This document shows, in pieces, positions 28,570 through 51,103 of a DNA stretch of 64,000 nt. A model generated the notes under the pieces. It was not told where the DNA came from, did not search any database, and worked only from the letters and a program-made list of their open reading frames with translations. Made by a program: the position numbers and the translations under genes. The stretch is from contig JAJFZO010000049.1 in the NCBI GenBank assembly GCA_021397835.1, forward strand, positions 9,367,001 through 9,431,000. Direction: 5' to 3'. Every line of letters starts with the position of its first letter. The stretch's first letter is position 1. The stretch comes from Moringa oleifera (lineage: Eukaryota > Streptophyta > Magnoliopsida > Brassicales > Moringaceae).

Positions 28570-30635
28570 ACAACACTAAATCATGGATATAAAACTACAA
28601 GAAACACATACATAACCATAAATTAAGTACACCTTTCATAAGGTGGATACAACCTCTCCTTTTTAATGAAAAAAAATATGTGAGATGATAAATAATGATT
28701 TATTGCTCCGCCAATATCCACAAAATTAGAAATGAGCAGTCACAAGAGCAAATTACAAAAAATACGTAAAGGCACATAATTACAACGTGAACTACTAAAG
28801 TCGTTTTAGTTTATGAGCATTATATGATGATGTATTATGTTGAAGAACATAACAATATCAGAAGAAACTTAAATAAAGTCGTACATAAATTTGTGTATAT
28901 CAGTACCTTTCCTTCCAATTAAGAAAAATATTTATCAATGAAGAAGATGGGATCCAAACCAAAAATGAGCATAGTATGTGAAAGTGACATCTTAAAAGTT
29001 ATTATGATGAGAGAAGCTATCTAAAAAGTTTTACTAGAAAAACAATATTGAGGAAAAGAAGAATAAGATATCACCAATCTAAAAAGACAACTCAAAATCA
29101 ATTTAAGCCTATGAATGCCAAGCTCCATCCCATATATGATTATAGTGTTCCTTTCTTTTAAATGACTATATGAGGCACAATAAATAAACTCATAGCTTTA
29201 CCATTACTCTCCAAGCCATCACTTAATCAAAGTCGTTGAAAGTGAAGGTTGCTTTAAGATTAAAAAGAAAAAATAAAGGTACCTGAAAGCTATTGCAGCT
29301 AAGAAAGGTGGACTTTATATTTATTAAAGATTCATGTTAATACTCGTAATACTTACAAAATGATTTGTATATGAATGTTTTAATAAGATTAAAATAGTTT
29401 CCAACCTGTAACCTATTGTTAGTAGATTATTTCAGTTAAATAATAGAGGAACTTGTTTAATAGAAAAATCATAATAGAATTAAAAAACTTGGCGTTGCAA
29501 TAACATAGTTATCTGTAGTACTATCCAATCAAAGCAGCATGAATAACTCAAGCTCCAACATGGAAAGTATGAAATTTTTTGCTGGTAATAGCTTACTTGT
29601 TTAGCCAACTTATATCACCACCCTTCAGATTTTACCTGCCTTGTCATCCACTTTTGCTTAGTCATATGCCACGTGTTACTCTTAGGACAGTAAATTTGCT
29701 TTAAGGTCTCTCAAACATTTGACATGTGGTGTGAATAACGGTACATGTGTTCATTCATTAATTCTTAAATGCACTTGTGTTACAATACAGATAGCTATAT
29801 CGTCCACCAGGCAAAGAGATCAACATCACTTAAAGATTAAAACACTACCACTTTGAGGAACAACTCCAAAAAGAAAGAGGTAGGGAGGAAAAAGAATTAT
29901 TACGTCCATCAGCAGAATAAAGTAAAGACCGAATATATACATATACATCCATGGAAGTAGAAGATTTTCAAACTTGGAAGAAATGCACTTAAAAGTAATA
30001 CAAGGAAGAATTGCACTTAAAAGCAAATTATGTACATACTCCTGAACTATTAAATTAAAAAAATTAGAAATTAATGAATTTAAATTTATATTTAATTTCC
30101 CGTAGTGGTGACATATTCTCCAAAAATAAGAGTTTTCAAGTCCCAAAGAGTTGCAAGTCTTTAGTCATGAATACCAAAATTTATCTCTATCTAGAGGAAA
30201 ACAAAGGAGAAGGATAAAGAGAATAATCTGACTAAATAGCAAAGACACCCAAGGATTTGCAGCTTGTTCGATCAAGATTTTGTCAAACAAAGAAAATGAT
30301 AAAATGAATTACATTGCTTTATCCAAAGAAAACAGAAGAAAGGTCATAAAAGCAACATATGTTTAGCAAGTTAACTAAAGCAATACATACTAACTTGACA
30401 TACAAGGAAAACCAATGGCTACAGTAAAAAGAAAAATTTGAATAAAATGAGTTTTTATGCAACTATGACATATTCTTTCTTTTCTTGTCCAAAAGAGATA
30501 GTTGCGTTAAGTGTCAACTAATAACATTCATTCATCTCTATGTGAAAACTACTAATATTTATAAGTGGAACACTGATGGTGAATGCAGTAGAATCCAGTA
30601 CATAGGAAAAAGAAAAAGTAAGTACTCTAAAGATG
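28570..30635. other. Degenerate spacer within array module 1
   Basis: No recognisable gene. The minus-strand open frame 29826-30146 has no identifiable domain. Part of the sequence near 30190-30480 is shared with 32100-32350, 35030-35290 and 41520-41830 (flank of the P-loop exon copies). Confidence 0.4.
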
Positions 30636-30639
30636 TTAC

Positions 30640-30729
30640 CTCTTTTAAATGATCGTTTTATTTGATCTAATAACTCAACTACCTTAGATTTAGATGAATC
30701 ACAGGAGCTCTTCGACTCTTGGAGACCCT
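30640..30729 (-). pseudogene. 90-nt exon, copy 1 (unassigned gene)
   Basis: Bounded by a consensus acceptor (GTGGCAG) and donor (AAAGAG|GTAACAT). Reads GLQESKSSCDSSKSKVVELL then DQIKRSFKRG. It recalls the low-complexity N-terminal part of Ycf20-like precursors but could come from the AAA gene. Open in this copy. Confidence 0.5.
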
Positions 30730-31648
30730 CTGCCACAAGCACAATGCAAAAATTAGAAAATACATCATCGTTCACAATTCATATAGCAAACAAGGACCCA
30801 TGCACAGTTAATTACAATTTCTAAATAAGTGAAACATGTAGATAAAAGAAAGTTAACTGATCACCAGTTGGAGCTAACCTAGTAAAGTTTAATAACAAGC
30901 ATTCCAAACAACTTTCTTCACTAACAATCTACTACAACTAACCAAATTCTACCAATCATTAAAGCTATCCAAGAAAGAGAAAGTGAGCACCAAGAAAGGA
31001 AAGAGCAGCAAGATAGAGAAAGCGAGAGCAAGAGACAAACAGAGAGAGAGAAATAAGGTAGATAAACCTTTAGATAGTAGTAATATAGTCACTAGAAATA
31101 ATTAGGGATGGTGTAAGGGATAAATGTTATCATTCGTGTCCACAAGTAATTTTCTTTTAGACTACAACAGCACCAAAAAGATGATAATCAATTTTCTAAA
31201 TGACATAGCAAGAGTGCCTTGATAAGAACCAACAAATATGATGTGGTAGTATTATGTAATCTATAGTAATACCTAGAAGAAAGTAACATAGAAGAAGAAC
31301 AAGGAAATGATGAAGCAATCAAGAAGATCAGCAGAAAGTGAAAGATGAATATCAAGAATAAGAAACACAGGTTTAGAAAATGTATGGCTTGAAATAACTA
31401 ACAAATATATCTGGTGAAATTTTAAGAAAAACATTTATGTAGGGAAGTTTAAAACAGATTTTATAGAATCATGGTTGTAAAGTAGTGAAGATAGATTTTA
31501 CAAAAAAAAAAAAAAACTTCTTAAAGGATCCAACACAGAGATTTTACAGAAATCATCTCCATAGACAAGTTCACAGAGATATTCCTCCCAGCAAGGAGCA
31601 TGCTGCTTAAAAGAATGCAACAGTTTTGAAGAGTTTTCTGAGGCATAA

Positions 31649-31855
31649 CTAAGTAGCAAGCTTAAAAGCATCGATAAAGAAACCATAAGTAAAATCCATC
31701 TTGAAGTTTTTTAGGAAAGTAACAGGAAAACTTACCTTAATTCGACTGTGATAGGACTTTATAACATGCTCTGTTAGGATAACACATAATACAGCAGCGA
31801 TAATATCACTGACTCCTAAAGCTCTAAATGACAAAGAAATTTTTTCTGCCATTCA
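31649..31855 (-). pseudogene. Ycf20-like C-terminal exon, copy 1
   Basis: Open to the stop, reading SLSFRALGVSDIIAAVLCVI to FFIDAFKLAT. The GGFYV start of the exon is missing. At about 31855 the sequence switches abruptly to module 2 flank (CCAGAAGCAGAAATGGTGAA), which marks a rearrangement junction. Confidence 0.75.
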
Positions 31856-31989
31856 GTATCCAGAAGCAGAAATGGTGAAAATGGAACCAAACTACATCAA
31901 GAAATACCATTAATGTAGGAAACATAAGTTTAGTGATCTGTGAATTCTAAATTTAATTAACTAAATGATGCATTTGTATCTCGACACAC

Positions 31990-32107
31990 CTTTGATATGA
32001 GAATAGAACTAGTTATACTGATAATATTTGCCCTAGCTTCTGCTGCAAGTGCCTTGGGAGTGTTATCGATACGAGAAGGACCAAATAGTAATATCCCTTT
32101 CCAAACA
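31990..32107 (-). pseudogene. AAA-ATPase P-loop exon, copy 2
   Basis: The homologous exon ends at a GT donor after the serine-lysine equivalent. The P-loop is degenerate: the glycine-lysine-threonine is replaced (GPSRIDNTPKALAAEA), so no nucleotide binding would be possible. Confidence 0.75.
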
Positions 32108-32467
32108 GAGAAAAGTCTCACTAAACAGTAAAGAGACCTAAAGATTTACAACTTTTTTTATCAAGATTTTGTCAAACAAAGAAAATTATAGAGATGAGTT
32201 ATGTTGCTTTATCCAAAGAAAAAGGAAGACAGATCATAAAAGCAACCAATGTTCAACCAGTTAATTAAAGCAATACATTTTAACTTGACATGCAAGGAAA
32301 CCAAATGGGTGCAATAAAATGAAAAATTTGAAAAAAATGAGTTTTTCTGCAACATTCATTCATCTTTATGTTAACACTGCTAATATTTATGAGTGGAACA
32401 CCTGTGGTGAGTGCAATAGAATCCAATACAAAGGGAAAAGAAAAAGTAGGTACTTTGAAGATGTTAC

Positions 32468-32557
32468 CTCTCTTCAATTATAGTGTTATTTGATCTAATG
32501 ACCTACCGACCTCAGATTTAGATGAATCATAGGAACTCTCTGACTCTTGGAGACCTT
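32468..32557 (-). pseudogene. 90-nt exon, copy 2
   Basis: Same exon as at 30640. The acceptor AG is lost (CT to TT on the plus strand at the 32557/32558 boundary). Confidence 0.5.
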
Positions 32558-33034
32558 TTGCCATAAGTACAATGCAAATATTAAAAAATAGATCATCTTT
32601 CACAATTCATATAATAAGCAAGGATCCATGCACAATCAATTAGAATTTCCAAATAAGAGAAACAAGTCGATAAAAGAAAGTTAACAGATCACCAGTTGGA
32701 GCTAACCTATTAAAGTTTAACAATAAGCATTAAATTAAAGACGAAGATCAAGAATATGAAACAAAAGTTCAAAAAATATATTGCTCAAAATAGACGATGA
32801 ATATATATGGTGAAAATTTTCAAAAACTATCTACGCAGAGAAGTCAAGATAGATTTTATAGAATTATGGCTGTACAGTAGTCAAGATAGAATTTGTACAA
32901 AAATTTCCATGAGGGATCCAACACAGAGATTTTATAGAAATCATCTTCATAGACAAGTTGACAGAGATATTCCTTCCAGCAAAGAGCATGGTGCTCAAAA
33001 GAATATAACTGTTGAAGAGTTTTCTCAAGCATAA

Positions 33035-33260
33035 CTAACTAGCAAGCTTAAAAGCATCGATAAAGAGGCCATAAATGAAACCCATCTTGAAGTTTTTTAA
33101 GAGAGTAATAGGAAAAGTTACCTCGGGTCTACTGTAATAGAACTTTGTAACATACTCTGTTAGGAGAACGCATGATACAATAGTGATAATATCACGTATT
33201 CTTAGAGCTTTAAATGACAAAAAGATTTTTACTGCCACATAAAAGTGACTTAACAATGAG
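33035..33260 (-). pseudogene. Ycf20-like C-terminal exon, copy 2
   Basis: Fully open, reading HFYVAVKIFLSFKALRIRDI and ending GLFIDAFKLAS-stop. Two hydrophobic segments match the family's membrane helices. It shares several private substitutions with copy 6 at 39556 (both inside the ~6.5-kb repeat). Confidence 0.8.
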
Positions 33261-33771
33261 ATGTAACTTCAATTCCATGGAAACGAGTATTAGAATGAGA
33301 AAAACATTGTACAAAATAACCAAATCTAAATTCAAGATCAAGAAAAAGAATCAACCTTAGGGTGCCTTCTTTGGATACTTAACTCATGGTTATGCAATGC
33401 TGCAATGTTTTCGTTCTGATCACGAAGTAGCTGAATGTTTAGATGCTGACTCTAATTAGAAAATAGGATGCATGTCTAAATTGCAACTCCATCTAAACTG
33501 CTATTATGATGGCTACTGCTGCCCCATCAAAACTGCTACTGCTATTTGCCTACTGCATCAAAACTGTAACTATTACTGCCTTTTGCATCTAAATTACAAC
33601 TGCTATACTCTTACTACAATGCTGCTACTACTGCACTACTATCCTGCTGTTGCTATGCTGCAATACTGCTACTGCTACTTTTACATTACTATACAGCTAT
33701 ACTACTACATTGATATATAAAATGTAGCTAAAACGCTTACCTCAGGTCATGTTTTCACAGCAGTGACTCAC

Positions 33772-33854
33772 CTCAACAACAAATATAATGACAAGAGCTA
33801 GCTTGCTAGCAATGGAGAAAAGAGCCTTTTCAGCTTTCCAACATCTCCAAACCA
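33772..33854 (-). pseudogene. AAA-ATPase Walker B exon, copy 1
   Basis: Starts WFGD and ends just before a GTGAGT donor. The acceptor AG is mutated, and the internal frameshift leading to a TAG (AGC-TAG) found in the other copies is present. Confidence 0.75.
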
Positions 33855-34913
33855 TTTTAACATGATAAGAAAGTAACATAGAAGACGAACAAGGAAATGA
33901 TGAGGCAATCAAGAAAATCAGCATGAAATCAAAGACGAATATCAAGAATAAAAAACAAAAATTCAGAAATAGTATGGTTCTACATAGCCAAAAAACATAA
34001 GTTGTGGAATTTTACGAAAAACATCTTTATAGAGAAGTAAATACAGAATTTAGATAATCATGGCTGTAGAGTAGTCAAGGTAGATTTTAGAGAAAAAATC
34101 TCCATAAATGATCCAACACAAAGATTTTACGGAAATCATCTCCATAGACAAGTTGACAAAGATATTCCTCCTAGTAAAGAGCATGTTGTTCAAAACAATG
34201 TAACAATTGAAGAGTTCTTTAGGCATAATTGACTAGCAAAATTAACCACATGTTTTGTCAAAATAAAATTTCAATGCCAATAAGATTATGCACACAAGCA
34301 GAACAAGCATCTAATGAAATCCTTCAACTTTTAATTTAGGATGCAACAAAAGGTTTAAACAACCTGTGAAAATGTTGTCAAAGTAGTGTGGCCAAATTTT
34401 TTTATCTAACATCATAAATCACATTCAATACTAATCCAAAAAAGAGTTATTTGTCTAGCTATCAACACCATTGAGGGTATCTAAAGGCTACAAACAAGTT
34501 CATTTTAGTATGACAGAGTAGATGAAGGGTAATTAAACTTACACATAATGTTATTCAGTCTTTTAAATTAGAAGTTATATACTTCATAATTAAACTGTCT
34601 TAAAGCTCTCAGGCTCTTCTTCTGTTGCACTACGTGATGAGAACTGATGGCCTTTAGTTCTAAAAATGAAGTTATTATTTATTAAAGAAAAACGAATTGA
34701 TGACATGGCTATCCCATATGGGCATAGCCACCACTATACTAGAAATAGAAATCGTAGAGCCAAAAAGAATAACAGAGAGAATCCAGAAGCAGAAATGGTG
34801 AAAATGGAACCAAATTACATCAAAGAATACCATCAATGTAGGACACTACAAGTTTAGTGATCCGTGAATTTCAAATTTAAATAACTAAATGATGCATTTG
34901 TATCTCGACACAC

Positions 34914-35030
34914 CTTTGATGTGAGAGTAAAACTATTTATGCTGATAATGTTTGGCCCAGCTTCTGCTGCAAGTGCCTTGGGAGTTCTACTGGTACGAGA
35001 AGCACCAAACAGTAATATCTCTTTCCAAAC
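34914..35030 (-). pseudogene. AAA-ATPase P-loop exon, copy 3
   Basis: Reads LFGASRTSRTPKALAAEA. The glycine after Phe-Gly and the P-loop lysine are both lost. The donor GTGTGTC is retained. Confidence 0.75.
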
Positions 35031-35452
35031 AGAGAAAAGTCTGACTAAACAGCAAAGACAACTAAAGATTCATAGCTTCTTTGATCAAGATTTTGTCAAA
35101 CAAAGAAAATTATAAGATGAGTAATGTTCCTTTATCCAAAGAAAAAGGAAGAAAGATCATAAAAGCAACCAATGTTCAGCTAGTTAATTAAAACAATACA
35201 TTTTAACCTGACATGCAAGGAAACCAAATGGCTATAGTAAAATGAAAAGTTTGAATAAAATGAGTTTTTCTGCAACTATGACATATTCTTTCTTTTCCTG
35301 TCCAAAAGAGATAGTTACACGAAGTGCCAACCAACAACATTCATTCATCTTTATGTGAAGACTGCTAATATTTATAAGTGAAACACTTGCGGTGAGTGCA
35401 ATAGAGCCCAGTACATAGGGAAAAGAAAAAACAGTTACTCTAAAGATGTTAC

Positions 35453-35542
35453 GTCTCTTAAATTCTAGTTTTATTTGACCTAATGACTCAAGGACCTCAA
35501 ATTTAGATGAATCACAGGAACTCTTCGACACTTTAAGACCCT
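35453..35542 (-). pseudogene. 90-nt exon, copy 3
   Basis: Reads GLKVSKSSCDSSKFEVLESL. The donor is altered (GAGAC|GTAAC context), the acceptor retained. Confidence 0.5.
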
Positions 35543-36020
35543 CTGCCATAAGCACAATGCAAATATTAAAAAATAAATCATCTTTCACAATTCATATAGT
35601 AAGCAAGGACCCATGCATAATCAATTAAAATTTCTAAATAAGAAAAACAAGTCGATAAAAGAAAGTTAACAGATCACCAGTTGGAGCTAACCTATTAAAG
35701 TTTAACATTAAGCATTAAGTTAAAGATGAACATCAAGAATGCGAAACAAAAGTTTAAAAAATGTATGGCTCAAAATAGACAACGAATATATATGCTGAAA
35801 ATTTTCAAAAGCTATCTATGCAGAGAAGTCAAGATAGATTTTACGAAATCATGGCTATAGAGTAGTCAAGATACAATTTGCAGAAAAAATTTCCATGAGC
35901 GATCCAACATAAAGATTTTACAGAAATCATCATTGTAGACAAGTTGATAGAGATATTCCTTCCAGCAAAGAGCATGGTGCTCAAAAGAATGTAACTAATG
36001 AAGAGTTTTCTCAGGCATAA

Positions 36021-36247
36021 CTAACTAGCAAGCTTAAAAACATCGATAAAGAGGCCATAAGTGAAACCTATCTTGAAGTTTTTTAGGAGAGCAATAGGAA
36101 AGTTACCTTGGGTTGACTGTAATAGAACTTTGTAACATACTTTGTTAGGAGAACACATAATGCAGCAGCGATCATATTAGTGATTCCTAGAGCTCCAAAT
36201 GACAAAGAGATTTTTTCTGCCACATAAAAGCCACCTAACAAGGAGAA
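36021..36247 (-). pseudogene. Ycf20-like C-terminal exon, copy 3 (frameshifted)
   Basis: Same exon, but one base is missing in the GTAACTTTTCC block near 36102, so the C-terminal third is out of frame. The stop codon is conserved. Confidence 0.75.
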
Positions 36248-36758
36248 GTAAATTAAATTTAATAAAAATGAGCATTAAAATAAGAAAACCACTGTACAAA
36301 ATAACCAAATCAAAATTCAATATCAAGAAGAAGAATCAATCTTCGGGTGACTTCTTTGGATACTCCATTAACGGTTATGCAATGCTGCAATATTTTCATT
36401 CTGATCACAGAGTATTTGGACCTCTAGATGCTGACACTAATTAGAAAATAGGATGCATATCTACGTTGCTACGCCATCTAAATTGCTACTGTGATGGCTA
36501 TTGTTGCGTTATGTAAACTGCTGCTGCTACTGCATATCGCACCTAAACCACTACTGCTGATGCTGCCTATTGCATTTAAACTGTAACTGCTATACTCCTA
36601 CTGCAATATTGCTACTGCTGTACTACAATCCTACTATTGCTATGCTTCTACATTGCTACTATTGCTATTACACTATCATACTGCCATACTTGTATATTGA
36701 TATATAAAATGCAATTAAAACACTCACCGCAGGTCATGTTTTCACAGCAGTGACTCAC

Positions 36759-36841
36759 CTCATCAACAAATATGATAAGAGGGGCTAGCTTGCTGGCAAA
36801 AGAGAAAAGAGCCTTTTAAGCGTTTTGGCATCTCCAAACCA
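36759..36841 (-). pseudogene. AAA-ATPase Walker B exon, copy 2
   Basis: Acceptor TTACAG and donor GTGAGT are both intact. The text after WFGDA is out of frame and hits the shared TAG before the aspartate-glutamate of Walker B (IIFVDE is readable in another frame). Confidence 0.8.
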
Positions 36842-37212
36842 CTGTAACATGATAAAAAAGTAACACAGAGGAAGGACAAGGAAATGATGAACCAACCAAA
36901 AAGATGAGCAGAAAGTGAAAAATGATATCAAGAATAAGAAACAAAAGTTTAGAAAATGTATGGTTTGAAATAGCCAACAAATATTCTAATGGAATTTTGC
37001 GAAAAACATCGATGTAGAGAAGTAAAGGCAAATTTTACATAATCATGGTTGTAGTAGTCAAGATAGATTTTACCGAAAAAATGTCCGTAAAGGATCTAAC
37101 ACAGAGATGTTACAGAAATCATCTCCATAGGCAAGTTGATAGATATTTTTCTCCCAACAAAAAGCATGTTGCTCAAAAGAATGCAACAGTTGAAGAGTTT
37201 TTTCAGGCATAA

Positions 37213-37418
37213 CTAACTAGCAAGCTTAAAAGCCGATAAAGAGGCCATAAGTGAAACTCATCTTGAAATTTTAAAAGAGACCAATAGAAAAGGTTACCTT
37301 GGGTCAATAGTACCAAAAATTTGTAATATACACTGTTAGGAGAACACATAATACAACAGCCATAATAACTCCAAATGACAGAGATTTTTTCTGCACATAA
37401 AAGCCATCCAACATGGAG
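37213..37418 (-). pseudogene. Ycf20-like C-terminal exon, copy 4 (deleted in several places)
   Basis: Small deletions at the ATCGAT and GTTCTCC..GACATT-equivalent positions break the frame more than once. Confidence 0.7.
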
Positions 37419-37910
37419 ATGTAACTTGAATTTCATAGAATAAATATAAAAATAAGAAAAACAGTGTACAGAATAAAAAAATCAAAATTCAGTATCAAGG
37501 AAAAGAATCAACCTTTAGGTGCCTTCTCTGGCTACTTCATTCATGGTTATGCAATACTGCAATATTTTCATTCTGATCACAGAGTAGCTGAACCCTAGAT
37601 ACGGACTCTAGAAAATAGAATGCATATTTAAACTGCTACTCCATCTAATTTCCATTGCGATGGCAATTGCTGCCCATCTAAACTGTTGGTGCTACTGTCT
37701 ACTGTATCTAAACTACTACTACTGTCTACTGCATCAAAAACTACAACTACTATACTCCCACTGCAATACTGCTACTGTTGCATGACAATCCTGCTACTTT
37801 TATGCTGCAATATTGCTACTGCTGCTATTACACTTCTATATTGCTATACTGATATATAAAATGAAGCTAAAACACTTACCCCAGGTCATGTTTTTATAGC
37901 TGTGACTCAC

Positions 37911-37993
37911 CTCATCAACAAATATAATGAGAGCGGCTAGCTTGCTCGCAAAGAAAAAAACAGAATTTTAAACTTTTCAGCATCTTCAAACTA
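37911..37993 (-). pseudogene. AAA-ATPase Walker B exon, copy 3
   Basis: The first codon TGG is mutated to TAG, and the shared internal stop is also present. The donor is intact. Confidence 0.72.
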
Positions 37994-38366
37994 CTATAAT
38001 ATGACAAGAAAGTAACATAGAAGAAGAACAAGTAAACGATGAGGCAATCAAGAAGATTAGGAAAAATTCAAAGATGAATATCCAGAATAAGAAACAAAAG
38101 TTCAGAAAATGTATGGCTTGAAATAGCCAACAAATATATATGGTGGAATTTTATGAAAAACATCTATATATTGAAGTCTAGACAGATTTTACATAATCAT
38201 GGCTGTGGAGTAATTAATATAGATTTTACCTAAAAAATCTCCATAAAGCATCCAACACAGATACTTTACAAAAATCATCTTAGACAAGTTAATAGAGATA
38301 TTCCTCTCAACAAAAAGCATGCTGCTTAAAAGAATGTAACAGTTGAAGAGTTTTTTTCAATCGTAA

Positions 38367-38593
38367 CTAACTAGTAAGCCTAAAAGAATCGATAAAGAGG
38401 CCGTAAGTGAAACCTATCTTGATGTTTTTTAGGCGAGCAATAGAAAAAGTTACTTCGGGTCAATTGTAATAGATCTTTGTAACATACTGTGTGAGAAGAA
38501 CACATAATATAGCAGTGATAATATCAATGACTCCTGGAATTCCAAACGACAAAGAAATTGTTTTTGCCGCATAAAAGCCACCCAACAAGGACA
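38367..38593 (-). pseudogene. Ycf20-like C-terminal exon, copy 5 (internal stop)
   Basis: Opens LLGGFYAAKTISLSFGIPGV but the conserved arginine codon of the YYSRP motif is TGA (38460-38462). Confidence 0.78.
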
Positions 38594-39101
38594 TGTAACT
38601 TGAATTTTCATGGAAACAAATATTAAAATATGAAAAATATTGTATCAAATAATTATATCTAAATTCAATATCAAGAAAAAGAATCAACCTTCGAGTGCCT
38701 TCCCTGGACACTTCACTCACAGTTATGCAACGCTATAATATTTTCATTCTGATCGCGAAGTATCTGAACCTCTAGATGATGCCACTAATTAGAAAAAATG
38801 ATGTATATCTAAACTGCTACTCCATCTAAACTGTTACTGCGATGGCTACTGTTGTCCATCTAAACTACTGCTGTTATTGCCAATTGCATGTAAACTGCTA
38901 CTACTACTGCCAACTGCATCAAAAACTGCAACTGCTACACTCCCACTGTAATACTACTACTACTGCACTTTAATTTTGCTATTGCTATACTGTAATACTG
39001 CTATTGTTGCTGTTACACTATTATACTGCCATATGGAGATACTGATACATAAAATATAGCTAAAACACTTATCGCAGGTCATGTTCACAAGAAAGACTCA
39101 C

Positions 39102-39182
39102 CTCACCAACAAATATAATGATAGAGGTAGCTTGTTGGCAAAAGAGAAAAGAGCCTTTAAGCTTTTCAGCATCTATAAACCA
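39102..39182 (-). pseudogene. AAA-ATPase Walker B exon, copy 4
   Basis: The acceptor AG is mutated to AA, the donor retained. Contains the shared frame disruption. Confidence 0.7.
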
Positions 39183-39555
39183 TTGTAACATGATAAAAAA
39201 GTAACATAAAAGAAGAATAATGAAATGATGAGACAATCAAAAAGATCAATAGAAAGTCAAAGATGAACATCAAGAATAAGAAAAAAAAGTTTAGAAAATG
39301 TATGGCTCGAAATACCCAACAAAAATATCTTGCAAAATTTTATGAAAAACATCTATGTAGAGAAGTAAAGACAGATTTTACATAATCATGGCTATACAAG
39401 ATTCAAAATAGATTTTATAGAAAAAATCTCCATAAAGGATCCAACACATAGATGTCATAGAAATCAACCCCATGGACAAGTACCAAGATATTCCTCCCGA
39501 CAAAAAGCATGTTGCTCAAAAGAATGTAACTGTTGAAGAGTTTTTCTAGGCCTAA

Positions 39556-40355: not shown

Positions 40356-41419
40356 CTGTAACATGATAAAAAAGTAACATAGAAGAAGAACAAGGAAACT
40401 ATGAGGCAATCAAGTAGATCAGCAGAAAATCAAACATGAATATCAAGAATAAGAAACAAAAATTCAGAAAATATATGAGTCTAAATAGCCAACAAACATA
40501 TCTGGTGGAAGTTTACAAAAAATATCTATGTAGGGAAGTAAAGATAGATTTTAGATTTTACAGAATCATGGCTGTAGAGTAGTCAAGGTAGATTTTACAG
40601 AAAAAATCTCCATAAAGGATCCAACACAGAGATTTTACAGAAATCATTTCCATAAACAAGTTGACAGAGATATTCCTCCCAGCAAAGAGCATGCTATTCA
40701 AAACAATGTAACAGTTGAAGAGTTTTTTTAGGCTTAATTGATTAGCAAAATTAACCACCCATTTTGCCAAAATAAAATGTCAATGCCAATAAGATTATGC
40801 ATACAAGCAGAATAAGCATCTAATGATATTCCTCAACTTTTAATTTAGGATGCAATAAAATGTTTAAACAACCTATGAAAATGTTGTCAAAATGGTGTGG
40901 CCAAATCTTGTTTATCTAACATCATAAATCAAATTCAGTACTAATCCAAAGAAGAGTTATTAGTTTAGTCATTAGCACCATTGAGGGTATCTAAAAGCTA
41001 CAAACAAGTTCTTTTTAGTATGATAGAGTAGATGAAGGGTAATTAAACTTATGCATAACTTTATTCAGTCTTTTGAATTAAAGTTACGTACTTCATAATT
41101 AAACTGTCTTAAACCTCTCAGGCTTTTCTTCTGTTGCACAACGTGACGAGAACTGATGGCCTTCAGTTCTAAAATGAAGTTGTTATTTATCAAAAAAAAA
41201 AAATTGATGATATGGCTATCCCATATGGACATAGCCACCACTATACTAAAAAAAGAAATGATAGAGCTTGAGATAATAACAAAGAGAATCCAGAAGCAGA
41301 AATGGTGAAAATGGAACCAAACTACATCAAGGAACACCATCGATGTAGGAAACATAAGTTTAGTGATCTGTGAATTCTAAATTTAATTAACTAAATGATG
41401 CATTTGTATCTCGGCACAC

Positions 41420-41540
41420 CTTTGATGTGAGAGTAGAACCAGTTATACTGATAATATTTGCCCTAGCTTCTGCTGCAAGTGCCTTGGGAGTGTTACTAGT
41501 ACAAGAAGGACCAAACAGTAATATCCTTTTCCAAACAGAG
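41420..41540 (-). pseudogene. AAA-ATPase P-loop exon, copy 4
   Basis: Reads RILLFGPSCTSNTPKALAAE and ends SITGSTLTSK at a GT donor. The downstream part is the best preserved of the four copies, but the P-loop lysine is lost (SNT for GKT). Confidence 0.8.
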
Positions 41541-41960
41541 AAAAGTCTGGCTAAACAGCAAAGACACCTAAAGATTTACAGCTTCTTTGATCAAGATTTT
41601 GTCAAACAAAGAAAATTATAAGATGAGTTATGTTGCTTTATCCAAAGAAAAAGGAAGGAAGATCATAAAAGCAACCAATGTTCAACCAGTTAATTAAAGC
41701 AATACATTTTAACCTGACATGCAAGGAAACCAAATGGTTGTAGTAAAATGAAAAATTTGAATAAAATGAATTTTTCTGCAACTACGACATATTCTTTTTT
41801 TTTTCCTGTCTAAAAGAGATAGTTGCACAAAGTGTCAACCAACAACATTCATTCATCTTTACGTGAAAACTGCTAATATTTATAGCTGAAACACTTGTGG
41901 TGAGTGCAATAGAGCCCAGTACATAGGGAAAAGAAAAAGTAGGTACTCTGAAGATGTTAC

Positions 41961-42050
41961 CTCTCTTAAATTATAGTTTTATTTGATCTAATGACTCAAC
42001 GGCCTCAGATTTAGATGAATCACAGGAACTCTTCGACACTTGGAAACACT
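41961..42050 (-). pseudogene. 90-nt exon, copy 4
   Basis: Acceptor GGCAG and donor GAG|GTAACAT are intact. Reads CSSCDSSKSEAVESL-type text. Confidence 0.5.
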
Positions 42051-42537
42051 CTGCCACAAGTACAATGCAAATATTAAAAAATAAATCATCTTTCATAATT
42101 CATAGAGTAAGCAAGGACCCATGCACAATCAATTACAACTTCCAAATAAGAAAAACAAGTCGATAAAAGAAAGTTAACAGATCACCAGTTGGAGCTAACC
42201 TATTAAAGTTTAACGTTAAGCATTAAGTTAAAGATGAATCAAGAATGCGAAACAAAAGTTCAAAAAATGTATGGCTCAAAATAGACAACGAATATATATG
42301 CCAAAAATTTTCAAAAACCGTCTATGCAAAGAAGTCAAGATAGATTTTACGAAATCATGGCTATAGAGTAGTCAAGATAGAATTTGCAAAAAAAAAAAAA
42401 AAAAATTCCATGAGGGATTCAACACAGAGATTTTATAGAAATCATCTTCATAGACAAGTTGACAGAGATATTCCTCCCAACAAAGAGCATGGTGCTCAAA
42501 AGAATGTAACTATTGAAGAGTTTTCTCATGCATAACT

Positions 42538-42763
42538 TACTGGCAAGCTTAAAAGCATCGATAAAAAGGCCATAAGTGAAACTCATCTTAATGTTTTTTA
42601 AGAGAGCAATAGCGAAGTTACATTAGGTTGACTGTAATAGAACTTTGTAACATACTCTGTTAGGAGAACACATAATCCAACAGCAATGATGTCACTACCT
42701 CCTAGAGCTTCAAATGTGAAAGAGATTTTTTTTGCCACATAAAAGCCACCTAAAAATGAGATG
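42538..42763 (-). pseudogene. Ycf20-like C-terminal exon, copy 7 (frameshift, stop lost)
   Basis: One base is missing in the GTAACTTTTCC block near 42612, and the terminal TAG has become AAG, so the frame would run into the 3' flank. Confidence 0.75.
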
Positions 42764-43214
42764 TAACTTGAATTTCATAGAAAGGAATATTAGAATAAGA
42801 AAAATATTGTATAGAATTACCAAATCTAAATTCAGTATCAAGAAAAAGAATTAACCTTTAGCTGTGGATACTCCACTCACGGTTATGTAATGCTGCAATA
42901 TTTCCATTCTGATCACAAAGTGGCTATGGTGAATCTAAATAGAAAATAGGATGCATGTTTAAACTGCTACTCCATCAAAACTGCTACCGCGATGGCTACT
43001 CCTACTACATCTAAACTATTACTGCCACTGCTTACTATTTCTAAACTACCACTGGTACTGCTTATTGCATCTAAACAGCAACTGCTATACTCCAACTCCT
43101 ATGCTGCTACAGTGCTACTGCTATTACACTACTATGCTATCATCCTGCTATATTGCTGCATAAAATGCAGCTAAAACACTTATCGCAGGTCATGTTTTCA
43201 TAAGAGTGACTCAT

Positions 43215-43300
43215 CCTATCAACAAATATAATGACAGGGGCTAGCTTGCTGGCAAAGGAAAAGAGAGCCTTTTAAGCTTTCCAGCATCTCCCAACAACAA
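43215..43300 (-). pseudogene. AAA-ATPase Walker B exon, copy 6
   Basis: The donor GT is changed to AT and the acceptor region is altered. The exon body is still recognisable. Confidence 0.65.
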
Positions 43301-43609
43301 TAACATGTGGAAAATGTAACATAGAAGAAGAATAAGGAAATAATGAGGCAATCAAGAAGATTAGCAAAAAGCAAAAAATGAATATCAAGAATAAGAAACA
43401 GAAGTTCAGAAAATGGATGGCTCAAAATAGCCAACAAATATATCTGGTGGAATTTTACGAAAAAATATGCAGAGTAAATTAAGATAGATTTTACAAAATA
43501 GGGTTGTAGAGTAGTCTAGATTTTATAGAAAAAATCTCCATAAGGCAACACCAAAATTTCACAGAAATCATCGATATACAAGTTAACAGAAATAAGTAAA
43601 GTAACTTAG

Positions 43610-43777
43610 TTGATTGATAAAGAGGCCATAAGTGAAACCTATCTTGATGTTTTTAGGAGAGCAATAGGAAAAGTTACCTTGTGCTAAAAATGATAGACAC
43701 TTTGTAACATACTCTATTAAGAGAACATAAAATACAGCAGCGATAATGACAAGCTACCATGCTGCCCAATAAGGGGA
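43610..43777 (-). pseudogene. Ycf20-like C-terminal exon, copy 8 (truncated)
   Basis: The 3' end (DAFKLAS) is deleted and there is an internal deletion around the GVSDII block. Only fragments align. Confidence 0.7.
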
Positions 43778-44199
43778 TATAAGTTGAATTCCATAGAAAT
43801 GAATTAAAAAATGAGAAAAACATTGTACAGAATAATAACCAAATCTAAATTCAGTACTAAGAGAAAGAATCAACCTTCGGGTACCTTCTCTCGATACTCT
43901 AGTCACGGTTATGCAATGCTGCAATATATCCATTATGATCACAGAGCAGTTGAACCTCTAGATGCTGACTCTAATAAGATAATAAGATGCATATCTAAAC
44001 TGCTATGCGATGGCTGCTGTTGCCCCATCTAAAGTGTTACTGCCTACTGCATCTAAAATGTTACTGCCTACTGCATCTAAACGGAAACTGCTACACTCGT
44101 AATGCTACTGCTACTGCTGTATATCCTACTATTACTATGTTACGGCTATACTATACACTATATGCCATAGTATGTCATGCAGCTAGTTTACGTATGATA

Positions 44200-44250
44200 G
44201 TGACTCAATAAACAAATCTAGCCACTAAAAAGTGAGAAAATGCAACATGA
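44200..44250 (-). pseudogene. AAA-ATPase Walker B exon, remnant
   Basis: Only the donor-proximal and acceptor-proximal ends of the exon survive (TGACTCA..AACAAAT and ATGCAACATG). The centre is deleted. Confidence 0.45.
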
Positions 44251-44506
44251 AGAAAATATGAGGCAATGATTTCACAAAACAAAAGTTCAAATGCTATAGC
44301 CAGTGGAGAAAAACATCAAGATAGATTTTACAAAACCATGCTATAGAGTAGTCAAGATAGATTTTACAGAAAAAATCACCATGAAGGATCAAACACCGAG
44401 ATTTTATAGAAATCATCTCCAAAGACAAGTTGACAGAGATATTCCTCCCAACGAAGAGCATGCTCCTCAAAAGAATGTAGCAGTTAAAGAGTTTTTTAGG
44501 CATAAC

Positions 44507-44733
44507 TAACTAGCAAGCTTAAAAGCATCGATAAAGAGGTCATAAGTGAAAACCATCTTTAATTTTTTTGAAGAGCAATAGGAAAAGTTACCTTAGGCTG
44601 ACTGTCATAGAACTTTATAACATCCTCTGTTACGAGAACACTTAATACAACAGCGATAATATCACTGACTCCTAGAGCTCCAAATGACAAATAGATTTTT
44701 TCTACTACATAAAAGCCACCCAACAAGGAGACG
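44507..44733 (-). pseudogene. Ycf20-like C-terminal exon, copy 9 (frameshifted)
   Basis: The LLKNFKMGF-equivalent block carries a deletion that produces TAA. The terminal stop is conserved. Confidence 0.72.
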
Positions 44734-45075
44734 TAATTTCAATTCCATAGAAATGAATATTGAAATAAGAAAAACATTGTACAAAATAACCAAATCTAAA
44801 TTCAGTATCAAGAAAAAGAATCAACTTTCAAGTGCCTTCTCTAGATACTCCACTCACAGTTATGCAATGTAGCAATATTTCCATTCTGATCACAGAGTAG
44901 TTTAACTATCTAAACTGCAACTACCACTGCCTCCTGCATCTAAACTGCAACTGCTATGCTGCTACTGCTGTACTCTTATTGTGCTTCAGCTATGCTTTTA
45001 TACTGCTAATACTGCTGTTACACTGCTATACTACTATACTGCTATACTGCATGTCATGTTTTGATAGGAGTGACT

Positions 45076-45161
45076 CATCCCATCAACAAATATAATGACA
45101 GGGGCTAGCTTGCTCACAAAGAAAAAAAGAGCCTTTTGAACTTTTCAGCATCTCCAAACCA
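45076..45161 (-). pseudogene. AAA-ATPase Walker B exon, copy 7
   Basis: Donor GT altered (GATGAGT context), acceptor ACAG retained, same exon body. Confidence 0.68.
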
Positions 45162-45533
45162 CTGTAACATGTGAAGAAAGTAACATAAAAGAATGAGGAA
45201 ATGATGAGGCAATCAAGAAGATCAGTAGAAAGTCAAAAATGAATATCAAGAATAAGAAACAAAAGTTCAGAAAATGTATGGCTCGAAATAGCCAACAAAT
45301 ATATCTTGTGGAATTTTACGAAAAAAGTCAATGCAGAGAAGTCAAGATAAATTTTACAGAATCAGGGTTGTAGAGTAGTCAAGATAGGTTTTACAGAAAA
45401 AATCTCCATAAAGGATCCAACATAGAGATTTTATAGAAATCATCTCCATCGACAAGTTGACAGAGATATTCCTCCCAATAAAGAGCATGGTGCTCAAAAG
45501 AACGTAACTGTTGAAGAGTTTTTTCAGGCATGA

Positions 45534-45760
45534 CTAACTAGCAACCTTAAAAGCATCGATAGAGGTAATAAATGAAACCCATCTTGAAGTTTTTTAGGAG
45601 AGCAATAGGAAAAGTTACCTTGGGTCGACTATAATAGAACTTTGTAACATACTCTATTAAGAGAACATATAATACAGTAGCGATGATATCACTGACTCCT
45701 GGAGCTCCAAATGACAAAGAGAATTTTTCTGCCATATAAAAGCCAGCCAACAAGGAGATA
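45534..45760 (-). pseudogene. Ycf20-like C-terminal exon, copy 10
   Basis: Open from LAGFYMAEKFSLSFGAPGVS to KNFKMGFIY, then frameshifted by a small deletion at the ATCGAT..GAGG block. It shares this lesion with copy 11. Confidence 0.78.
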
Positions 45761-46193
45761 TAACTTGAGTTCCATAGAAATGAATATTAAAATAAGAAAA
45801 AAATTGTACAGAATGACCAAATCTAAATTCAATATCAATAAAAAGAATCAACCTTCGGATGCCTTTTCTCGATACTCCACTCACGGTTATGCAAGGCTGC
45901 AATATTTCTATTATGATCACAGAATAGTTGAACCAATAGTTGCAGAATGTAATTAAAAAATAGGATGCATATCTAAACTGCTACTCCATCTAAACTGCTA
46001 TTGTGATAGCTATTGCTGCCCCATCCTTGCTGCTACTGCTATGCTGCTACTGCTGTACTACTATCCTGCTACTGCTATGCTGCAGTACTGCTACAACTGC
46101 TGTTACACTACTATACTGCCATACTGCTATACGGATATATAAAATGCAGTTAAGACACTTACTGTAGGTCATGTTCTCATAAGAGTGACTCAC

Positions 46194-46276
46194 CTCATCA
46201 ACAAATATAATGACATGGGCTAGCTTGCTCGCAAAAGAGAAAAGAGCCTTTTGAGTTTTCCACCATCTCTAAACCA
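46194..46276 (-). pseudogene. AAA-ATPase Walker B exon, copy 8
   Basis: Acceptor and donor intact, with the shared internal frame disruption. Confidence 0.75.
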
Positions 46277-46652
46277 CTGTAACATGTGGGGAAAAAAAAA
46301 ACAAAGAAGAAGAACAAGGAAATATTGAGGCAATCAAAAAGATAAGCAAAAGTCAAAAATGAATATCAAGAATAAGAAACAAAAGTTCAAAAACTGTATG
46401 GCTTGAAGTAGCCAACAAATATATCTGGTGGAATTTTCCAAAAAACATCAATATAAAGAAGTTAAGATAGATTTTACAGAATCATGACTATAAAGTAGTC
46501 AAGATAGATTTGCAGAAACAATTTTCATAAGGTATCCAACACAGAGATTTTATAGAAATCATCCCCATCGACAAGTTGACAGAGATATTCCTCCCAATAA
46601 AGAGCATGGTGCTCAAAAGAACGTAACTGTTGAAGAGTTTTTCCAGGCATGA

Positions 46653-46878
46653 CTAACTAGCAACCTTAAAAGCATCGATAGAGATAATAAGTGAAACCCA
46701 TCTTGAAGTTTTTTCGGACAGCAATAGGAAAAGTTACCCTGGGTTGACTATAACAAAACTTTGTAACATACTCTGTTAGGAGAACATGTAATACAGCAGC
46801 GATGATATCACTGACTCCTAGATCTCCAAAGGACAAATAGATTTTTTCTGCTGTATAAAAGCCACCCAACAAGGAGAT
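46653..46878 (-). pseudogene. Ycf20-like C-terminal exon, copy 11
   Basis: Reads LLGGFYTAEKIYLSFGDLGV and carries the same 3'-end frameshift as copy 10, so the two units derive from one local duplication. Confidence 0.78.
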
Positions 46879-47306
46879 ATAACTTGAATTCCATAGAAAT
46901 AAATATCAAAATAAGAAAAACATTATACAGAATAACCAAATCCAAATTCAGTATTAAGAAAAAGAATCAACCGTCAGGTGCCTTCTCTGGATACTCCACT
47001 CACAGTTATGCAATGCTACAATATTTCCATTATGATGACAGAGTAGCTTAACCATCTAAACCGCTACTGCTACTTCTACTGTCTACTGCATCTAAACTGC
47101 CACTGCCACTGCCTCCTGCATCTAAACTGCAACTGCTATACTCCTACTGTTATACTACTACTGTTGTACTACTATACTGCTACAGCTACACTGCTATAGT
47201 ACTGCTGCAGTTACATTGCGATACTACCATACTGCTATGCTATACTGATATATAAAATGCAGCTAAAACACTTACCGTAGGTCATGTTTTCACAGGAAAG
47301 ACTCAC

Positions 47307-47389
47307 CTAATCAACCATTATAATGACAAATGCTAGCTTATTGGCAAAGTAGAAAAGAGCCTTTTAAGCTTTCCAGCATCTCCAAGCCA
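47307..47389 (-). pseudogene. AAA-ATPase Walker B exon, copy 9
   Basis: Acceptor ACAG and donor GTGAGT retained, with the shared internal frame disruption. Confidence 0.72.
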
Positions 47390-47763
47390 CTGTAACATAT
47401 GAAGAAAGTAACATAGAAGAAGAACAAGGAAATGATGAGGCAATCAAGAAGATTGGCAGAAAGTCAAAGCTAAATATCTAGAATAAGAAGCAAAAATTCA
47501 AAAACTGTATGGCTCGAAATTGCCAACAAATATATCTGGTGGAATCTTACAAAATACATTTATGTAGAGAAGTCAAAATAGATTTTACAGAATCATGGCG
47601 GTAGAGTAGTCAAGATAAATTTTAGGGAAAAAATCTCCGTAAAGGTTCCAACAAAAGATTTTATAGTAATCATCTCCATAAACAAGTTAACAAAGATATT
47701 CCTCCCAGCAAAGAGCATGCTGCTCAAAAGAATGTAACAGTTGAAGAGTTTTCTTAAGCATAA

Positions 47764-47992
47764 CTAACTAGCAACCTTAAAAGCATCAATAAAGAGGCTA
47801 TAAGTGAAACCCATCTTCAAGTTTTCTAGGAGTGCAATAGGAAAAGTTACCTTCAGTCGATAGTAATAGAACTTTGTAACATACTCTGTTATGAGAACAC
47901 ATAGTACAGCAGCGATAATATCGCTAACTCCTGGAGCTCTGAATGAGAAAGAGGTTTTTTCTGCCACGTAAAAGCCACCCAACAAGGAGATG
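47764..47992 (-). pseudogene. Ycf20-like C-terminal exon, copy 12 (open)
   Basis: The best preserved end of the array. LLGGFYVAEKTSFSFRAPGV, then VSDIIAAVLCVLITEYVTKF, then KMGFTYSLFIDAFKVAS-stop, all in one frame. Ycf20 (DUF565) proteins are small plastid membrane proteins linked in plants to non-photochemical quenching. The GFY...NF(W)K.G...GLF.DAFKL.S pattern is the family signature. Without the upstream exons and transit peptide this copy is not expected to be functional alone. Confidence 0.78.
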
Positions 47993-48307
47993 TAACTTGA
48001 ATTACATAGAAATGAATATCTAAATAACAAAAACATTGTCAAGAATAACAAATCTAAATTCAGTATCAAGAAAAAGAATCAACCTTGGGGTTCCTTCTGT
48101 GGATACTCCACTTACAGTTATGCAATGCTGCAACATTTCACTTCTGATCACAGAGTAGCTGAACCTCTAGACACTAACTCTAATCAGAAAATTGGATGCA
48201 TATCTAAACTACTACTCCATCTGAACTGCTACTGTGATGACTACTGCTGCCCCATCTAAACTGCTACTGCCACTGCCTACAGCATCAAAACTGCTACTGC
48301 TACTAAC

Positions 48308-51103
48308 CTGATGAATTCTGAAAGCAAATCTTACACCTTGAAGCAGCATATAATCCATGGAAGGATCTTTCTCTGTTGTGGCCTTCGATTGAAGTTCAAT
48401 AGCTACCCTCTTCATGTACTTCTTTGCCAATTTGACTGAACCAAACTTAATCTGCAGCATACAGTGGTCAAGTCTTACACCAAGTTAAAACAAACATTCT
48501 CTAGGAGTGTTGGAGGCTACCTAGAAAAATAAAAGAAAAATAAAACAATGAGTAACCTCAAGAATTTGTATCTTGGCACTAGAGAGCAGATAAAGCTAAG
48601 CAATAAATGGTAAGTTGACAAATTGACTTATGAGTTTCTTCTATGCACATCTGGAGAGATCAATCACTTCCTAGAGAAACCAAGTATTGTTGAATTGCTT
48701 CAGATAACATCTAAGGCTTGATTAAAGCTGGAGGCAGTTGTAGTTTGTTTATGAATTAACATGTCTTTCTTTTTCCTCTCCATCACTTTCTGAAACTTTC
48801 TAGCTTATTCTGATACCTTTTTATATAAGAACCTAGTGGAATCATGTATAGCAAAGAAAAAAATTATAATGTGCAGTTTCAATTTTTGAATTTCAACCTT
48901 AAATGGATAACAAGCTAAATGAAGCATCCTCTGCACAGCCAAGTCAGTGTTTCTTCATGGGAGAAATGACTCAAACAAACACAAATATGATGTAGAGTTA
49001 TTTCATCTTCTGAAAGTGTAGCAATAATTCCCATGCTCATGCTTTAAAATTTCATTCCAAGAAATTAGAAAGCATCATCTCACCTTGCTAATGATCCCAA
49101 TGTCAAGCATCCAATCTGTGGGAAATTGAAATTCCGTGCAGTTGTGCATCAAGGAGTCTCTAGTTCTGAAAAGGTTGTAGACAGTACATTCCATCCTATC
49201 AATGCAAATAAAACTTTTATGCAGTTGCAACTTGGGAAGATTGGTTTTCAGAGATTGCAAAGGGAAAAAAGGGAAAAAGCAATGTTACGATAGTATTAGG
49301 TTCTTACTTCTCAGATAAAGCAATAAGTCCAATATCACAAGGCATTCTTGGGTCATCCTTGTAGTAAGAAACCTCATATTCCAATTTCTTTATATCTCTG
49401 TATCCGAATGCTGCTTCTCTCAAAGTGTCTGCCTTCTTCTCTGGCCAATCAAAGTGCTTTAACACTGCCCTTTCATCCACCTTCACACGGATTCAACCAA
49501 AATGAGGACCACAAGAAAACTGCAGTGATTTTCACAAAATAATACAGTCATCTCTAGAAACCTCAAGCAAGCATGAAGCTCAAATTTTTAGATGTCATTA
49601 GACCATGTTGACATATTTGGCATGCCAACTTCTAAACAAATGTACTACAGCAATCAGTTTAATTGTCTTCAGGACATCTGCAAACAAATATACAACTTAC
49701 CAGAAAGCAAAGTTCATCATCAAGCCACTTCATAAATTCCACAACATCTTCAATGTTCTGATAAACTGTGTTGTTGACCTCTCTTATTAGTGAGTTCACA
49801 AATTTCTCTTGAGTTTCAACATCAGCCTTTATCTACACAAAAAGATACAGATTAAAAACAATGAGGATCCGAAGTGACTGTAAATTTTGAATGTGTAAAA
49901 TCTAAATAAAGAGCAATTCAAATAGAAACTTTTTCCATGCTTAATTTGGCAAGGAAGAAGAGAAGCAGCCTCTTTAATCCTAGCATGCTATAAAATATAA
50001 AAAATTCTTCTTGGCCTGTCTTCTCTTGGTAAAGAGACAAAGCCTGGATGTCATACACAGCCTGAGAAATGCAATCATATATCTAAAACAAAATGTGCTC
50101 CATATAAGTAAGCTTCATATTGTCAAAGGAAGGGGAAACTGGCAAACACTTACTGCAAGAAAATGTGATGATCAATTCTCTATTTCACCAATCATGCTGC
50201 TACGAACATTTGTAACATCTGGAGCATCACAGATTCCTCCACTTGAAGAGTCCTTTCTGGAATCCATCTTCATGAGTGAATGATAAAACTCAACTACTTG
50301 TGGGGCTCGTTGCACCATTCCTGTGCTACTCTTCGACGAGAACTTCGAAGGAGGAGGAGGGGGAGGTGGTGGATGTGGAGGTGGTGGTGGTGAAGGACTT
50401 TGTCTCGAACCTTCCTCTTTAGTCCAGTGGAAATAGAACATGAAGGCCTTGGAGGAGGATTTGGAATTCGCAGAGCTCTTCTTTCAACAGCTAAACAAGT
50501 TATTTTATTAATTTCTTGGCAGTTTCCAAAGAATTGAGGTCTTTCAACTGCACCCATGTCATATCTTTGGGAAGCTGTTGTCTCTGCTTCCTTCTCTATT
50601 TCGTTTGCACTCATAAAGCCATCGGATTGCCTTCTCTTATTCGGCACCCATTCATAAAGGCAGCATTTCGATCTACTTATGGAGTGTCTTCGCCTAGGAC
50701 TTCCATCATCCTCCAAGTGATCCCAGTTTTTATCTAACAGGTTTCCTGAACATTCGTCATTGGAAAAATCTTCACTAGTAATAGGCCATTTCTTCAACTT
50801 TTTAATCAGCTTTAGTCTATTTGCACTACTGCATTCTAAGCCTTCATCTCTGTAATAAGGCAGTGATCGAAGAGGTTCACCATTTTTCTCGACTGAATTA
50901 GGACTTGAAGCCTTCTCAGAATTAAGGGTCGAACATGAATTGCGTAGCTCATCACGCAGACAAGAATTGACCCACCTAAGATATGCAAGCTCCTCAACCT
51001 CATTCAACTGGCTCATTTGTAGACCTTCAACTTGTTTGCACAGATCTTCATTTGTGTGTCTTAGCTTAGATGCCTCAGCTTTAATCAGTGCAACAATATC
51101 GCT
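48308..51103 (-). pseudogene. CHUP1-like (actin/chloroplast-positioning) protein gene, broken, last exon missing
   Basis: Exons in minus order: 50173-51103, 49701-49832, 49308-49480, 49084-49195 and 48308-48451, all with AG/GT borders and compatible phases in the last four. The first contains EASKLRHTNEDLCKQVEGLQ, EVEELAYLRWVNSCLRDELR, a proline-rich run and GMVQRAPQVVEFYHSLMK. Later exons carry QNIEDVVEFMKWLDDELCF, ERAVLKHFDWPEKKADTLRE, DSLMHNCTEF and KFGSVKLAKKYMKRVA, the conserved C-terminal CHUP1 core. Lesions: a one-base loss in the CTAAAG run (50418-50420), a TGA at 50172-50174 where the family has arginine (EIEN-stop-SSH), and a short in-frame deletion before IALSEK. The final family exon (FAGGFDAE.. 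type) is not found before the array begins. In intact relatives the protein links chloroplasts or membranes to actin. A possible first exon with ATG at 51773 (MKASFSWEILS, donor at 51739) is out of phase. Confidence 0.88.
50340..50402 (-). repeat. Polyproline-coding run in the CHUP1-like exon
   Basis: CCACCACCT-type codons encode a stretch of mostly prolines (PSPPPPPHPPPPPPPP). In CHUP1 relatives the proline-rich segment binds profilin. It lies just 3' of the frameshift. Confidence 0.7.

Follow-up and report, generated by a model that had tools for sequence, protein, structure and literature searches.

Satellite arrays of the alpha-satellite kind are organised as higher-order repeats, and the origin of satellite monomers can rarely be traced. 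Maize Helitrons, as described in PMC3288121, join fragments of several unrelated genes in one element by stepwise capture, and are delimited by a 5' TC, a 3' CTRR with a hairpin and insertion between A and T. PMC11549084 portrays the rye B chromosome as a mosaic of sequence from the A chromosomes in which a gene family has been amplified, and suggests local microhomology for the duplications. Here we analyse a stretch of 64,000 nucleotides from Moringa oleifera (assembly GCA_021397835.1, contig JAJFZO010000049.1, here C583:9367001-9431000; "the window" denotes this whole stretch), part of a genome of 279.5 Mb in 669 contigs. The window carries a tandem array whose basic 1.1-kb monomer unites an AAA-ATPase exon encoding the Walker-B motif, a biotin-carboxylase exon and the C-terminal exon of a Ycf20-like gene. 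We consider it likely that this array is non-coding, satellite-like DNA built from fragments of host genes, which would have arisen by formation of a mosaic, tandem duplication, deletion and en-bloc amplification. The observations that carry this reading are the composition of the array, an intact Ycf20 gene and open AAA exons elsewhere in the genome, partial orders of the same pieces at other loci, a common junction, neutral divergence and position-matched units of two arrays.

Self-comparison of the window reveals diverged direct repeats from about 30.2 to 48.3 kb. An earlier reading of the stretch, made from the sequence only (the sequence-only reading), had proposed this check for its claim of a large tandem array of direct repeats on one strand; the claim is borne out, and the array, with 12 Ycf20 copies on the minus strand, is larger than supposed. 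The whole array (30218..48304, minus strand) is bordered on the right by a simple CTG-type tract adjoining a CHUP1-like exon, and homologous sequence extends leftward to about 26.9 kb. Spacings are mostly 1.03-1.19 kb, in addition to block duplications of ~3 kb and 6.5 kb, and the copies share roughly 76-94% identity. Exon queries against the whole window (tblastn, E<=1e-3) matched exclusively within 27,998-48,164 and on the minus strand, with zero matches on the plus strand or in the remainder of the window. They returned 12 copies of the Ycf20 exon (15 high-scoring segment pairs), 11 of the carboxylase exon, nine of the Walker-B exon, four of the Walker-A exon and four of an open reading frame (ORF) designated LQES; the same queries produced one match in 20 block-shuffled windows. 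The locus thus displays head-to-tail tandem monomers in large arrays, as satellite DNA does.

All component copies lie on the minus strand. The Ycf20-like (DUF565) C-terminal exon occurs at 31652-31852, 33038-33244, 36024-36229, 37235-37402, 38370-38576, 39559-39765, 42539-42744, 43613-43747, 44509-44714, 45559-45741, 46678-46860 and 47767-47973; it was recognised by tblastn, by Pfam (DUF565, E=5.9e-16 and 1.9e-12 on the two window copies scanned) and by DNA homology to the intact gene (L012:4062-4529). The biotin-carboxylase exon, probably of an acetyl-CoA carboxylase, was located by tblastn at 33353-33436, 36338-36421, 37510-37593, 38686-38769, 39874-39957, 42867-42920, 43872-43955, 44823-44903, 45850-45933, 46969-47049 and 48081-48164, and has homologous exons in the loci L037 and L036. 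The Walker-B exon was found by tblastn at 33745-33837, 36729-36815, 37884-37976, 39081-39173, 40246-40329, 43185-43292, 45049-45144, 46167-46259 and 47280-47363, with 83-91% DNA identity to the AAA gene at locus L034 over exon and flanks. The Walker-A exon occupies 27998-28138, 31960-32094, 34884-35018 and 41390-41524 (tblastn), the first copy, at 28.1 kb, also matching Pfam AAA (E=1.7e-8). A Pfam scan returned nothing for 41390-41575, a Walker-A copy in a more advanced state of decay, or for the Walker-B piece at 46050-46268, and the identity of these two therefore rests on similarity to L034. The LQES ORF (30623-30778, 32451-32606, 35436-35591 and 41944-42099; tblastn) matched neither Pfam nor PDB when its frame at 35235-35591 was searched; at C473 and C12, AAA exons are found downstream of it. 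At the left, a terminal AAA piece retaining introns (27332..29463, minus strand) matches L034 with 82% identity over 2.2 kb, and is followed by a segment (26866..27275, minus strand) homologous to that directly after an AAA-carboxylase mosaic at C473 (L038).

The basic monomer reads AAA(Walker B)-carboxylase-Ycf20, which recurs along the minus strand as a cycle of carboxylase, Ycf20 and Walker B, and the carboxylase exon lies between Walker B and Ycf20 in 9 of 9 window cases. The sequence-only reading had placed Walker A and Walker B together upstream of Ycf20 in each unit. Walker B does occur there in nine places, but Walker A followed by Walker B in only two, Walker B being alone in the other seven, and the carboxylase exon, which that reading had missed, intervenes. 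In two units LQES and Walker A separate Ycf20 from Walker B, and in two others, at the left end, they come after Ycf20; three Walker-A exons fall inside the interval originally delimited for the array (30600..48310) and one outside it (28.0-28.1 kb). Walker B is missing from the unit at 44.7 kb, and the carboxylase exon from that at 31.8 kb. The proposal that two unrelated genes were fused and then amplified holds for the fusion of pieces of unrelated nuclear genes and for their tandem amplification, but the carboxylase, the LQES ORF and a CHUP1-like gene have to be added to the two.

A profile search of the contigs found DUF565 in 104 places. Three are open frames of 157-176 aa (C1, C533 and C583:79182), one is a single copy on C572, and 100 are array-type copies (46 on C583, 34 on C563, 16 on C21 and 4 on C22, window included), a lower bound, as only 8 of the 12 window copies pass that threshold. 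The intact Ycf20 gene on C533 is a single-exon frame of 155 aa, of which the array units carry roughly the final 75 codons with the stop codon, followed by ~310 bp of 3' flank. A natural AAA-Ycf20 fusion gene was considered and rejected: Ycf20 stands alone on C533 and in its relatives, which are 149-218 aa long with PF04483 as sole precomputed Pfam domain (best 120 of 422, under a length filter that would hide much longer fusions). Protein matches of an array ORF cover its Ycf20 part only, at 71-72% (best 120 of 271; here too the length filter hides long fusions). For the AAA piece, the gene L034 on C100 is the likely parent judging from similarity: the match of the window to it extends over 2.2 kb and runs through introns, and in the 5 kb read the frame stays open in the exons that precede and follow Walker A and B. 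The nearest solved relatives of one L034 exon are ATAD1/Msp1-type and spastin chains.

The carboxylase piece is harder to name. The window copy scanned shows weak similarity to carboxylases (best E=0.19) and no Pfam family. Its L037 homologue resembles human acetyl-CoA carboxylase 2 (3gid_A, chain positions 281-310, E=1.5e-4) and the next exon, in L036, the same chain at positions 310-358 (E=2.6e-6); since these positions abut, the two exons are neighbours in the protein. There are matches to methylcrotonyl-CoA and pyruvate carboxylases too, L036 has a Pfam ATP-grasp match below cut-off, and the best NCBIfam matches, urea and pyruvate carboxylase, are far below cut-off. The exon is thus most safely assigned to a biotin carboxylase, probably acetyl-CoA carboxylase, a narrower name that leans on plant sequence. 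The exon query gave 565 genome candidates of all kinds, Ycf20 arrays included (150 scored), and several open copies, C3 and C25 among them, are candidates for the intact parent. Separately, L037 (C100:179000-184500) is itself a satellite with a 2.12-kb unit, in which biotin-carboxylase exons follow one another in protein order, and there are similar matches on many contigs.

Other loci carry the same pieces in partial orders: Ycf20, LQES, Walker A and Walker B at C51 (of which C12, read in part, is a 96% identical partner); Ycf20 and LQES at C572; and strongly decayed LQES, Walker A, Walker B, carboxylase and then the segment homologous to window 26.9-27.3 kb at C473. The window array combines the gene orders of C51 and C473. 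Where Ycf20 is single-copy, at C51, it sits upstream of AAA, and the AAA-to-Ycf20 order of the array is therefore best read as a head-to-tail tandem-duplication junction; that AAA precedes Ycf20, as the sequence-only reading had it, is correct for the array and reversed for the single-copy locus. At the unit junction the carboxylase intron is joined to the Ycf20 exon, and the two sides share ATC(C/T)C. In the short monomer, which lacks LQES and Walker A, a T/C tract in the Ycf20 flank is joined to the T-rich tract before the Walker-B acceptor. Both junctions look like short-homology joins. The 100 array-type DUF565 copies place the array as one of many. In a genome search for the junction, as the sequence-only reading had suggested, 40 of the 152 candidates for a 126-bp query were scored, and all 40 span the junction and lie on C583, C563, C21 or C22. 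A common junction argues for one founding event. The AAA piece keeps its introns, and no poly(A) or A-tract follows the Ycf20 piece, which indicates copying at the DNA level; an origin as processed (retro) pseudogene was rejected on these grounds.

Divergence was examined in 30 Ycf20 copies covering most of exon and flank, including 10 of the window's 12; eight copies more than 97% identical to a kept one were dropped, leaving 22, two of them from the C572 and C12 loci. In these 22, divergence is 0.171/0.154/0.154 by codon position, the ratio of positions 1+2 to position 3 is 1.06 (bootstrap 95% 0.77-1.46), and exon identity (84.0%) resembles that of the flank (83.1%). Against the intact Ycf20 gene the codon-position ratio falls to 0.65 (0.45-1.01), which is what constraint on the gene and not on the copies would produce. 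An alignment gap falls within the exon in 18 of the 30 copies. As far as can be judged from such comparisons, the array copies look non-coding and appear to diverge neutrally, and a coding role is not supported.

To the right, the array adjoins a fragment of a gene that we take to be CHUP1/IPGA1-like, no library match being above cut-off (48311..51124, minus strand; exon pieces ~50294-51124, 49662-49832, 49313-49492, 49078-49195 and 48311-48451). The fragment is decayed, the frame of its large exon seems broken, and its last exon was not found. A CHUP1-like exon has 29 matches in the genome: the window, 22 further array-side places (8 on C583, 9 on C563, 4 on C21 and 1 on C22), C533 and 5 more distant ones; the C533 copy, 94% identical, is the likely parent. 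In the four copies examined (two of them 99% alike), exons are 92.5-99.4% and introns 93.5-98.7% identical pairwise, and in three of them one exon carries the same frame shift. The copies look like pseudogenes, and on these four the reading as functional genes was rejected because exons diverge like introns and the frame shift recurs. Upstream of the fragment, a segment at 51309..52683 (no strand assigned) has a core (51700-52680) that recurs beside 23 arrays including the window's and at further mosaic loci. The segment at 51.7-52.7 kb has 46 genome matches, of which 23 lie at the same CHUP1-array places with 91-100% identity; the other 23, among them C572, C51, C12, C53, C73, C473, C517 and C125, are lower in identity or length.

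Whole blocks of monomers are related as well. In a tree of units (25 rows, C563 being represented by one unit), units 1-4 of the C583 array at 9.476 Mb pair in order with those of the array at 9.650 Mb, each fork being starred, so that same-position monomers of two arrays are more alike than neighbours. This pairing constitutes a higher-order repeat spanning four units or more; most units of the window itself show no such match by position. Two further observations concern the surroundings of such arrays. Among the matches listed, C583 from ~9.442 to 9.571 Mb (L021-L033) consists mostly of a ~575-bp satellite, with units roughly 80-85% alike, around further Ycf20/AAA arrays; it has 211 candidates genome-wide (1 scored), and a scan of three ORFs for its source gene gave nothing above cut-off. 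At C563:4.285-4.301 Mb two arrays lie in opposite orientation, ~9 kb apart, a possible source of double-stranded RNA.

We envisage the following course. Genomic pieces, introns and flanks included, would have been gathered from an AAA-ATPase gene, a gene for a biotin carboxylase and the 3' end of Ycf20 into a mosaic that ran Ycf20 - LQES - AAA(A,B) - carboxylase. Duplication from head to tail would then have brought the intron of the carboxylase up against the Ycf20 exon, with a short microhomology at the join, giving the AAA-carboxylase-Ycf20 fusion, and a deletion from the Ycf20 3' flank to the polypyrimidine tract before the Walker-B exon would have produced the 1.1-kb monomer. The monomer may have multiplied by unequal exchange, and monomer blocks together with the adjoining CHUP1-like pseudogene would have been duplicated en bloc to 23 places on C583, C563, C21 and C22. 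We infer the order of events, the way in which the pieces first came together, microhomology-mediated joining and unequal exchange as the motor. Several observations weigh against this course or against neutrality. C51 lacks the carboxylase and C473 a DUF565 match, so that no examined locus has the whole ancestral order; the junction microhomology is exact over 3 bp only (5 bp if one mismatch is allowed); in the unit tree the array units do not group in a single clade distinct from the other loci; an extra deletion is needed for the last unit of the window, from which Walker B and carboxylase are missing; and the arrays at 9.476 and 9.517 Mb of C583 have no adjoining CHUP1-like match. Further, 23 of 30 Ycf20 copies have no in-frame stop (projected frame, insertions ignored), and pooled pN/pS between copies is 0.142/0.204 = 0.70, not 1, which transition bias may explain. 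A protein-coding gene family was nevertheless set aside: purifying selection on frames was seen neither in the Ycf20 codon positions nor in the CHUP1-like exons, with pN/pS leaning the other way.

The gathering of pieces from at least four genes in the same sense could also have taken place inside a gene-capturing transposon of Helitron, Pack-MULE or CACTA type, with tandem amplification afterwards; Helitron or Pack-type capture had likewise been named by the sequence-only reading. Maize Helitrons are described in PMC3288121 as capturing several fragments step by step, and the segment at 51.7-52.7 kb is common to loci with different cargo, as a shared transposon end would be. But homology to C572, C51 and C523 stops at different places, five pairs of block ends, each examined out to 150 bp, show no exact inverted repeat longer than 9 bp, and neither window strand has a hairpin-CTRRT end under one strict definition. 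Pfam scans of 19 selected window ORFs recognised no Rep/helicase or transposase in or beside the array. Transposon capture is not supported by these limited tests, and we consider it unlikely, though the recurrence of one segment with different cargo lends it some weight and it may belong to an earlier stage, since erased. The sole transposase found in the Pfam scans consists of hAT pieces at window 1333-3334 (plus strand), ~25 kb from the array (2657-3334: Dimer_Tnp_hAT E=1.6e-32, hAT RNase-H E=6.6e-20).

That every piece has one sense would equally suit a functional chimeric gene family, in which a CHUP1-like promoter and exons are spliced into array-derived exons, and of the 7 units displayed 6 retain an AG acceptor ahead of the Walker-B exon. 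Such a family is highly improbable in view of the neutral appearance of the Ycf20 exons and of the CHUP1-like copies described above, with intron-like exon divergence in four and a common frame shift in three of them. An assembly artefact, by which one locus was collapsed or duplicated by the assembler, hardly comes into consideration: units in the window differ by roughly 6-24%, and two contigs, 10.8 and 13.8 Mb long, have arrays in their interior. The C22 copies are more than 97% identical to C583 copies, and C21 scores equal or nearly equal C583, so both may be haplotigs.

Elsewhere in the window, 9582-10941 holds a 21-22/43-bp minisatellite (GCCATGGCTGCCACCTT type) with long open stretches in several frames on both strands. 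A protein at 14.2-15.3 kb has at most 83% identity among the matches listed, with Carica, Manihot and Ricinus among the best, and a tRNA-Arg (ACG) at 15617-15689 (minus strand) is the sole Rfam match at gathering threshold in the window. The stretch at 53000-57000 is very AT-rich (GC 16% at 54-56 kb) and homologous to C572 and, partly inverted, to C51.

One genome here holds likely source genes (Ycf20 and AAA), partial mosaics, a putative duplication junction, an apparent monomer-forming deletion and higher-order amplification, and thereby offers a worked case of ordinary genes turning into satellite DNA. The array is a test case for whether such repeats reach centromeres or make small RNAs against their source genes. 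The window array and the intact genes have exact 21-mers in common, 68 of 757 for Ycf20 with its 3' flank and 42 of 70 for the Walker-B exon. It is conceivable, though we think it rather doubtful, that protein-coding genes are a main source of (peri)centromeric satellites in this genome (AAA-carboxylase-Ycf20, the 2.1-kb carboxylase and perhaps the 575-bp satellite), forming heterochromatic, possibly centromeric blocks on several chromosomes, and that small RNAs from the arrays could reach the parental genes by way of these shared 21-mers.

A literature search of titles and abstract starts gave no description of a three-gene exon-fusion satellite with surviving intermediates, a weak negative. 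One comparison lies within the same genome: the 2.12-kb satellite (L037, C100) has carboxylase exons, also in tandem, but its units are ~92% alike and ~2.6 units read gave no blastn match to AAA or Ycf20. As in the rye B chromosome (PMC11549084), host-derived pieces are intermingled and amplified; unlike there, the amplified pieces look non-coding, and there is no evidence for a B chromosome or drive. With the maize Helitron mosaics of PMC3288121, the array shares the joining of several unrelated gene fragments, but no Helitron ends were found in the tests made, and amplification was in tandem and not by dispersed transposition. In higher-order-repeat satellites of the alpha-satellite kind, as here, monomers differ within an array and same-position monomers of two arrays match; in contrast to these, the monomer here is ~1.1 kb long and is put together from exons, parts of introns and a 3' flank that derive from three host genes. 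The array thus behaves as a higher-order-repeat satellite and is composed as a gene-capture mosaic, each of which is a kind already known.

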